Positions 43,481 through 46,406 of a stretch of 64,000 nucleotides of DNA are shown here, piece by piece. Below the pieces are notes generated by a model. The model had not been told where the DNA came from. It did no database searches and worked only from the letters and a program-made list of their open reading frames with translations. Both the position numbers and the translations under genes were made by a program. Origin of the DNA: Willaertia magna (lineage: Eukaryota; Heterolobosea; Eutetramitea; Acrasida; Naegleriidae); contig CADWAF010001251.1 of assembly GCA_902984215.1 (NCBI GenBank), positions 113,781 through 177,780 on the forward strand, read 5' to 3'. Each line of letters begins with the position of its first letter. Positions within the stretch are counted from its first letter, which is position 1.

Positions 43481-44895
43481 TTACAATTTGCAGTCTTGTT
43501 GCTTTGAAGAGTATTCTTTTTGTGCTTCATCATCTTCGCCAAAAGCCAATTTGTTGTGATACCCAAAAGTGTCTATTTCCTTTCTGTATGATAATCTTCC
43601 AAACTTTATGTCATCATTATTATCAAGTGTATTGTTCATAGAGAGTTGAGTGAATTTATCATTTGCTTTTCTACAGTATTGACATGTCAGTAATGCAAGT
43701 AAAGAATTTCTTACAGAAGGTAGGCCGAATCCATAAACACAACAATTTAAAAATCCTTGCAGGGGAGCAAAAACGCTAAAGAAGAATGTGTAAAACACAA
43801 ATTCAAAGTTAGGACTGGTTCTATTAAGCAGTGTACTAAAACCTAAATAATAGAACCAAATAGCTTGACAGCTTCCTGAAATCAAACTAAATAATAATTA
43901 GAAATACCATTAAAGAAATAACTTACAATGGAAGCAAATAAAGGCTTAATTTTCTTACAATATTATATCTAGCTCTCTTTGTTTCTTCTTTGGGAACTAT
44001 TCTAATCTGGGTAGCAGATAAAACATTTCCAACATATCTCCAAATAATAATTAATATACACAAATTAACAACTCCTGCCTTAATGATTTTGAATTAATTT
44101 AAGAATGTTTAAATTATTACTTACCATTGTTAAATATAATGCTCCAAACAAATAACAACTAAACGCAATATACTTATCAACACCAGGATTATTTTCTCTA
44201 AATCCTGTCAAATAAGTGGTCATTCCGTATACAAATAAAAACAAGAAAGTAACAATAGCTACGCTCCAAGCTATAATATGGAAAATAATGTCATACTTTT
44301 TGTTTGTTTCTATCCAATTAACTCGCTTAATAGTAGTATAAATTGCAATAGCTATGAAAACTGACCAAGTTGCAGAACAAAGACAAAAACTATAATTTCC
44401 TTGAGCAAAAGTATGTTGAATAATCCATGAAATTTCCTTAAACTTTCCCTCACTTGGATTAAAATCCGGAATATAAGTAGAACACCAAACCCAAACGGTA
44501 AACAAAATATTACAAGAACTAAACATAAAATCCGAAAAACAAAGCATTATCATTGTTCTTCTAATAAACTGTCTTTTGTTTTGGTGAATTACATCAGTTG
44601 TACTCTTCTTTTTCAATTTACTTTTATCAGAATTATTAACTAATAAATGTTGAGTTTCTTCGGCATCTTCATGAGATAAATGAATCAATGAATCGGCGAA
44701 AAACATAATAAAAACAATAATCGATCCAACAATACTTAGAAGATTGCCTAAAACGAAAATTATTTGAAAAGATAAGTTTATGATATCGGAGTTACTTTCG
44801 ATCGGAGTGGTTTGGTTATTATTTACAAAAGGTGGTCGAAACGAAAATAATTCCAAGTGTTTTCCACCCACAAAATCTCTTTGAAATTGAAACAT
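43481..44895 (-). CDS. Seven-transmembrane GPCR, cAMP-receptor-like
   Basis: Three exons, complement of 44125..44895, 43927..44078 and 43481..43886; 442 residues. Hydrophobic helices: IIFVLGNLLSIVGSIIVFIM, MIMLCFSDFMFSSCNILFTV, FCLCSATWSVFIAIAIY, IIAWSVAIVTFLFLFVYG, YIAFSCYLFGALYLT, then VVNLCILIIIWRYV and later helices in exon 3. The CFSDF in helix two and the SATWS...IAIAIYTT in helix three resemble the slime-mould CAR / secretin-like receptors. A Cys in the first extracellular loop could pair with another. It is divergent from a Galpha gene with only 204 bases between start codons, so shared regulation is plausible. Ligand unknown. Confidence 0.72.
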
Positions 44896-45099: not shown

Positions 45100-46406
45100 A
45101 TGGGTCAAAGCCCTGGAATGCCTATAGAAAGAAGGATAATGATATTAGGGACTGGTGAGTGTAAGTACTTAACCTTATTTCATGGTTAAACCTAAAAAAC
45201 TTCAGCCGGTAAAACAACACTATCCAAATGTTTTAAGATTATGTCTGGTGTTAAAGTATTAGAAGAACGGTCAAATATTAAGGCTGTTCTCAACTATAAT
45301 ATTTGTTATTGCATTCATGCAATATTATCGTTTGAAGGGCTTACAGATTTCAAGGAATGCGCAACTTCCTATGAAACAATTACAAACTTTTCTAAGTTGT
45401 TCTCCAATTCAGTTTCCCTACAACAGGCTTACAAACAAAGACATTTATACCATCATCCTTTGGAGGCATTCACCAACTTACTCAATAGAATTGATGATAT
45501 TAACAAGTTGAAAATTAGCCTTCAAGATTTCCTTAGTAGTTATGTCAAAACATGCGGTATTATCAGAAGTGCAAATTTGAATATCAATAATATAATCTTT
45601 CATATTTACGATACCGGTAAGTAATTTTAAAATTAATGTCTACTAACTTTCAATAAGGAGGACAAAGGTGTGAAAGAAAGAAGTGGAAGCTGGAATATGG
45701 AAATACAGATGCCTTTCTCTATTTGATCTCACTATCAGAATTTAATCAAATTATGTACGAAGCAAATGAAAATAGAATGTTAGATTCGTTACAACACTTT
45801 GAAAGTATAATGAACGACAAAAATTTCCCCAAATCAAAACCTTTCTACTTAATTTTTACTAAGGCAGATGTCCTTAAAGAAAAGATTAAAGAAATGAAGT
45901 TTGATCTAACAAATACCTTAAGTCATATTCCTAAATACTTTAAAGTGTTTAAACAAAACCAATCTAATCAATTTGAAAATACAGATAACTCTAAATTGGA
46001 GCAAATAACTAAACTTTCAGAAGACGAGTTTTGTGAAATAATTAGTTTTCTTTCAATTAAGGATTTGTATAGTATCATGTTGTCATGTAAATATATGTAC
46101 CAATTAATTAACTTGGACAGAGTTTGGTACTCTTTATGTAAAACTCAACACCGTGATATTACTAGTGAACATGTAAATGCATGCATAGACAAATATAGCT
46201 CTTCTACAGATTACAATGAATCTAGATTTAAGTATTATTATAAAAATCAGGGATATGTATTTGAAAAAACTCTAGATTACATTAAAGATATGTACATTAG
46301 TAAAATATCCAAAGAAACAAATTTAAAAGGTGTAAAAGTAATTTGCACAGTTGACCTGGAAAACACAACAAAAACTATTTCTTCAATTTTAGAACAATTA
46401 AAATAA
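45100..46406 (+). CDS. Heterotrimeric G-protein alpha subunit with an inserted F-box
   Basis: Three exons, 45100..45160, 45206..45616 and 45658..46406, in frame; 406 residues (usual Galpha about 350). P-loop ILGTGESGKTT (Gly17-Thr24), switch I VKTCGI (134-139), switch II DTGGQRCERKKW (156-167) with the catalytic Gln160, and a guanine-specificity FTKADVL (224-230, TKAD for NKxD). The C-terminal beta6/alpha5 reads VKVICTVDLENTTKTIS (384-399), corresponding to TCATDT. Between TKAD and this end lies about 100 extra residues with an F-box at 274-320 (LSEDEFCEIISFLSIKDLYSIMLSCKYMY...VWYSLC). The switch I Arg used in GTP hydrolysis is Tyr133 here. MGQ start may be myristoylated, weakly. Both domains lie in one continuous exon, so the fusion is not a splicing artefact. 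Confidence 0.85.

Follow-up and report, generated by a model that had tools for sequence, protein, structure and literature searches.

A 64,000-nucleotide stretch of the Willaertia magna genome (hereafter the window; assembly GCA_902984215.1, contig CADWAF010001251.1, positions 113,781 to 177,780 of the forward strand) was analysed, and a three-exon gene at positions 45100..46406 was found to encode a divergent Gα-type GTPase that carries an F-box in the loop between helices αG and α4. Nucleotide-controlled substrate loading of an SCF (Skp1–Cul1–F-box) ubiquitin ligase is predicted for this protein, a prediction to which we give about an even chance. The spliced three-exon product of 406 residues agrees from end to end, without a difference, with the NCBI entry ABK040_000147 (P0001; hypothetical protein, Willaertia magna). 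The genome published for W. magna T5(S)44, probably the source of that entry, was annotated with the help of RNA-seq generally, according to the accessible part of that report (PMC11702301). The 406-residue Gα/F-box protein described in the initial annotation of this stretch is borne out, with GT-AG introns between its exons.

Gene structure and Gα core

The features of the gene are as follows, in window coordinates.

45100..45160, plus strand: exon 1, with the start codon, β1 and the first half of the P-loop; eight residues precede β1 (model secondary structure)
45161..45205, plus strand: intron 1, GT-AG, interrupting the P-loop; the spliced product is exactly ABK040_000147
45206..45616, plus strand: exon 2, with the remainder of the P-loop, the helical domain and switch I (Tyr133, at the catalytic Arg site, is 45541-45543)
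45617..45657, plus strand: intron 2, GT-AG, inside switch II
45658..46406, plus strand: exon 3, with GGQR, TKAD, the entire insert and F-box, Gα α4-β6-α5 and the stop; a single open frame
45858..45869, plus strand: TKAD, the G4 guanine-binding motif, residues 225-228 (from the sequence)
45918..46238, plus strand: insert in the αG-α4 loop, residues 245-351 (gap in the profile match; low-confidence model segment)
46008..46142, plus strand: F-box, residues 275-319 (PF00646 and PF12937 above cutoff)
46239..46403, plus strand: Gα C-terminus (α4, β6, α5), residues 352-406 (profile test with shuffles; predicted local distance difference test score, pLDDT, 88-92 from residue 361; Gi1 alignment)

The architecture given initially stands, with the F-box inserted in one exon, in frame and flanked by Gα sequence; as minor corrections, intron 2 splits a codon of switch II and the Gα end is shorter than usual. 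Among the GTPase families of Pfam, G-alpha (PF00503) matched the window protein best, with 149.8 bits against a curated cutoff of 48.8; Arf scored 40.8, above its cutoff, Roc scored 19.7, below its cutoff, and the Ras family was not among the Pfam matches. The P-loop GTGESGKT (residues 17-24), switch II DTGGQR (156-161) and TKAD (225-228) are all present as first described, and the first two satisfy the consensus patterns GxxxxGK[ST] and DxGGQ.

Scanned alone against Pfam, the 63-residue C-terminal piece matched nothing up to E 10, and the top G-alpha stretch of the whole protein, residues 71-287, extends into the F-box. A Gα profile was therefore built from 30 other Gα sequences, leaving out P0001 and a second protein, P0007, described below. 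Residues 352-405 match positions 292-344 of this profile, and residues 345-406 score 22.8 bits against its C-terminal part, a score reached by none of 2000 shuffles; for a control stretch (residues 239-330), 1404 of 2000 shuffles reached the score against the same part. The score against the whole profile rose from 160.8 to 165.6 bits when the insert was removed. Since the match breaks off at profile position 288 (residue 244) and resumes at position 292 (residue 352), the insert is placed at about residues 245-351, in the αG-α4 loop. Judged by this sequence comparison, a genuine Gα C-terminus follows the F-box, as initially claimed. A profile search missing either part would, according to the initial annotation, have refuted its claim; both were detected, the C-terminus by the 30-Gα profile and not by Pfam.

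The predicted structure has the Gα fold, with pLDDT of 88-92 from residue 361, and aligns to Gi1 up to residue 344. The Foldseek and VIA matches listed for the model are Gα proteins and are uninformative on the F-box. The placement of the C-terminus depended on the alignment procedure: MAFFT in automatic mode often put it ahead of the insert, and the long-gap mode (E-INS-i) puts it at about residues 352-406. Alignment subsets (390; 30 one-row and 360 random) were each examined with and without P0007, and among the 30 best listed of the 390, 19 were at least 70% in agreement with E-INS-i in at least one version. Alignment A3 was picked for the agreement of its subset with E-INS-i, so the modelled C-terminus is not independent evidence; the 30-Gα profile test is.

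The F-box had been assigned to residues 274-320, which agrees closely with the Pfam matches in the whole protein: F-box (PF00646) at residues 275-314 with 23.0 bits (cutoff 20.5), and F-box-like (PF12937) at residues 284-319 with 27.3 bits (cutoff 24.3). When residues 262-345 were scanned alone, the scores were 27.7 bits for PF00646 and 30.6 bits for PF12937.

Several features of a heterotrimeric α subunit are absent. Gi1 is 354 residues long. The window protein stops where Gi1 has residue 344, to which its last residue, 406, aligns in the model; it ends ten residues short of the usual Gα end and has no C-terminal receptor-coupling tail. It also lacks the αN helix, as β1 starts after eight residues in the sequence and in the model secondary structure. 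In alignment A3 the catalytic switch-I arginine is replaced by Tyr133, so that the protein differs from Gi1 and the PF00503 α subunits in this residue as well as in the F-box of its αG-α4 loop; Gln160 of switch II is retained. The exact NKxD guanine motif is absent and TKAD stands in its place, TKxD being found also in several other Willaertia Gα proteins. Without αN helix, receptor tail and catalytic arginine, three absences overlooked in the initial annotation, the window protein is not an ordinary heterotrimeric subunit. The lack of the first two makes coupling to Gβγ and receptors appear unlikely, as far as sequence and model can tell.

A second protein with the same domain order

A second protein with both domains is P0007, of 621 residues, on a 5334-base NCBI contig. 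No protein named after Naegleria, to which W. magna is related, was among the protein matches, in which many rows are nameless and for which the search needs shared words, so that absence is not shown. In Pfam, P0007 scores 134.7 bits for G-alpha and 30.3 bits, above cutoff, for F-box-like at residues 445-486. The stretch after its F-box matches the α4-β6 region of the 30-Gα profile (0 of 2000 shuffles), with α5 itself unmatched. The F-boxes of P0001 and P0007 align with a score one point above the best of 2000 shuffles. Between the end of the F-box and α4, the alignment of the two proteins needs just one gap, of one residue, and 16 of 2000 shuffles did as well. The linkers ahead of the F-box show no alignment above chance (1937 of 2000 shuffles as good). 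With the inserts excluded, the top identity of P0007 among the tree rows is with P0001, at 28%.

A tree of 43 rows, from which 7 of the 30 database Gα proteins (P0024-P0027, P0029, P0031 and P0032) had been left out beforehand, pairs P0001 with P0004 (95/82) and P0007 with P0005 (88/91); the branches are long and the bootstrap had not settled. We favour a single inherited insertion behind P0001 and P0007, though the two inserts may be independent insertions. P0004 (423 residues, source lgn) is a possible second kind of Gα–F-box fusion; its C-terminal end matches only positions 2-16 of F-box-like (E 0.17).

Proposed mechanism and alternative explanations

Switches of the heterotrimeric type usually form one layer and cullin ligases another. 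In the window protein, the F-box would dock on Skp1–Cul1, as expected from its domain membership; the genome (19.2 Mb in 894 contigs; all genome counts given here are exon-level matches, not genes) gave three matches to Skp1 and seven to cullins. The Gα core should bind GTP, since P-loop, switch II and TKAD are intact; its switch face would select the partner for ubiquitylation, and the nucleotide state would determine the substrate loading of the ligase. With the arginine lost and Gln160 kept, its intrinsic GTP turnover is predicted to be slow unless an RGS protein or another GTPase-activating protein assists. The window protein is thus a putative GTP-switched ubiquitin adaptor, as first proposed, and we regard this as plausible. 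More tentatively, and with somewhat less than an even chance in our estimate, it may represent a class of SCF ligase with a Gα substrate receptor, in which the nucleotide state shifts the Skp1–Cul1 arm relative to the switch face. GTP binding would in that class directly determine which signalling proteins are degraded, independently of receptors and Gβγ. The existence of two proteins of one design hints that the switch may choose what is destroyed. If true, a Gα with a Skp1-docking module in its GTPase fold would unite switch and cullin ligase in one chain, and would offer a simple system for testing GTP-gated protein destruction.

A number of observations weigh against the adaptor reading. 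The F-box helices are modelled at residues 279-286, 291-303 and 308-319, but with pLDDT of 33-55 across the insert, so that of the structure expected initially the Gα core is recovered and the F-box helix bundle appears at low confidence. The F-box piece modelled alone reaches a mean pLDDT of 51.8, and no solved structure matches it by sequence up to E 1. Its start carries LS at the position of LP, the usual residues there. In P0007, PF00646 scores 17.7, below the cutoff of 20.5; this protein also has Tyr at the switch-I Arg position. The switch-II Gln is missing from it as well, which may mean that GTP switching is not conserved. Direct comparison of the C-terminal ends of P0001 and P0007 is at chance level (263 of 2000 shuffles as good), and the tree does not join the two proteins, yet joining is not rejected (p-AU 0.343, approximately unbiased test). 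P0005, in which no F-box insert is seen, likewise has Tyr at the catalytic-Arg position, so this residue is not a mark of the Gα–F-box architecture.

The LS at the F-box start and the low-confidence model would suit an insert that serves as a scaffold only, either binding a partner such as Skp1 with no cullin involved or having lost Skp1 binding, while the Gα part works or idles independently. We consider this rather unlikely, as the F-box core exceeds two curated cutoffs and the F-box-like match of P0007 is also above cutoff.

The main rival to the adaptor reading is self-turnover, in which the F-box recruits SCF to the Gα itself and limits the switch by fast turnover, with no separate substrate. 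The loss of the catalytic arginine would make an alternative way of ending the signal useful. A precedent is TbFRP of trypanosomes and euglenids, which consists of FYVE, F-box and Ras-like GTPase; in the accessible part of the report, its authors call the role of the F-box unclear and suggest a possible coupling to rapid proteolysis of TbFRP (PMC3593210). The adaptor GTPases Rab40 and RhoBTB, on the other hand, are described in the available portions of the literature as acting upon other proteins. We judge self-turnover to be unlikely, if still to be taken seriously, and retain the adaptor reading.

Gα family of the Willaertia genome and the neighbouring gene

Genome-wide, there were 55 matches to Gα and 79 to RGS, with at least 104 to F-box-like (150 of 201 candidates scored) and at least 84 to F-box (150 of 183 scored). 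Switch residues were counted by eye in 18 distinct open frames matching D[VTAI][GA]G, a set that lies outside the window gene and covers frames with the motif: the switch-II Gln is retained in 9 and the switch-I Arg in 15. Such losses are common in this expanded family. In the remaining 9 frames, Met, His, Ala, Glu or Asp stands at the Gln position.

These losses would fit a decaying paralogue or gene-model artefact within the family, as would the G+C content of the Gα C-terminal part (0.236), which is close to that of the upstream intergenic sequence (0.225). Such an origin is nevertheless improbable: the open frame is intact across three exons and agrees exactly with the NCBI protein record, the Gα end is still recognisable past a 107-residue insert, and the same domain order in P0007 speaks against a freak gene model.

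Among the matches listed genome-wide, Gα and F-box occur in one frame in the window gene only. On contig C744, a Gα and a nearby F-box are separate: judged by eye on unspliced frames, the Gα frame continues to its normal end, closed by a stop, and a different reading frame holds the F-box, with leucine-rich-looking sequence downstream. On contig C311, an F-box within 3 kb of a Gα is part of a separate F-box and Ras-like protein. A further unusual Gα fusion was seen at L033:3973-5280, where a single open frame encodes Gα (profile 6-237, 71.8 bits) passing into an RCC1 repeat (47.9 bits).

A gene at 43481-44895 on the minus strand is arranged head to head with that of the Gα/F-box protein, with start codons 204 bases apart; a three-exon splice model for it gives a likely seven-helix membrane protein. 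Its last helix carries the motif PLQGFLNCCVYG, which we take to be receptor-like from its resemblance to such motifs; Pfam gave no receptor family in this protein up to E 1.

Comparison with known systems

The adaptor part of Rab40 is a C-terminal extension. According to the available portions of the literature, this is also the case in RhoBTB, and Rab40 (SOCS box, Cul5) and RhoBTB (BTB, Cul3) are both GTPases carrying cullin-ligase adaptors. By its domain names, the window protein shares with them a GTPase and a cullin-adaptor domain in one chain; they differ from it in GTPase family and in cullin, that of the window protein being the predicted Cul1.

TbFRP of the Euglenozoa likewise carries F-box and GTPase on one chain, but its F-box precedes a Ras-like GTPase and is accompanied by FYVE, whereas the window F-box lies within the GTPase fold (PMC3593210, accessible part). 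In the window protein, FYVE was absent from the five families that Pfam gave up to E 1, and the GTPase is of the G-alpha family (149.8 bits, the best match) rather than Ras-like. An orthologue of TbFRP was not found in Naegleria gruberi by its authors, according to the same part of that report (PMC3593210).

Within the W. magna genome, co-location of listed F-box and Ras places followed by a Pfam check revealed at least five single open frames with an F-box and then a Ras-like GTPase, both above cutoff (L033:817-1902, L054:228-1382, L055:332-1396, L056:412-1599 and L057:328-1446). Like the window protein they encode both an F-box and a GTPase in a single frame, but their F-box is N-terminal and outside the small GTPase domain, and that of the window protein is inside Gα. 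L058 has F-box and GTPase in one exon with lower scores, and in L059 and L060 the two are in adjacent frames whose joining would require splicing. By eye, the proteins of L033, L054 and L056 start with MGQ, as the window protein does; L058 contains related pieces in tandem, several of them with a CaaX-like KCILM end. The recurrent fusions in W. magna and TbFRP in trypanosomes suggest that F-box and GTPase were combined on more than one occasion in these lineages.

The initial annotation was aware of no published protein with such a design. No literature on a Gα with an F-box was found, judged by title and start of abstract; the word F-box is absent from the text of PMC5784254 and occurs in PMC8296547 only in the reference list. 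To the extent of this search the claim holds for a Gα with an F-box, but a chain of F-box and GTPase has been published in TbFRP and recurs in the genome. The joining of a GTPase to a ligase adaptor is thus already known, and what is new in the window protein is Gα as the GTPase and the position of the F-box inside the GTPase fold.
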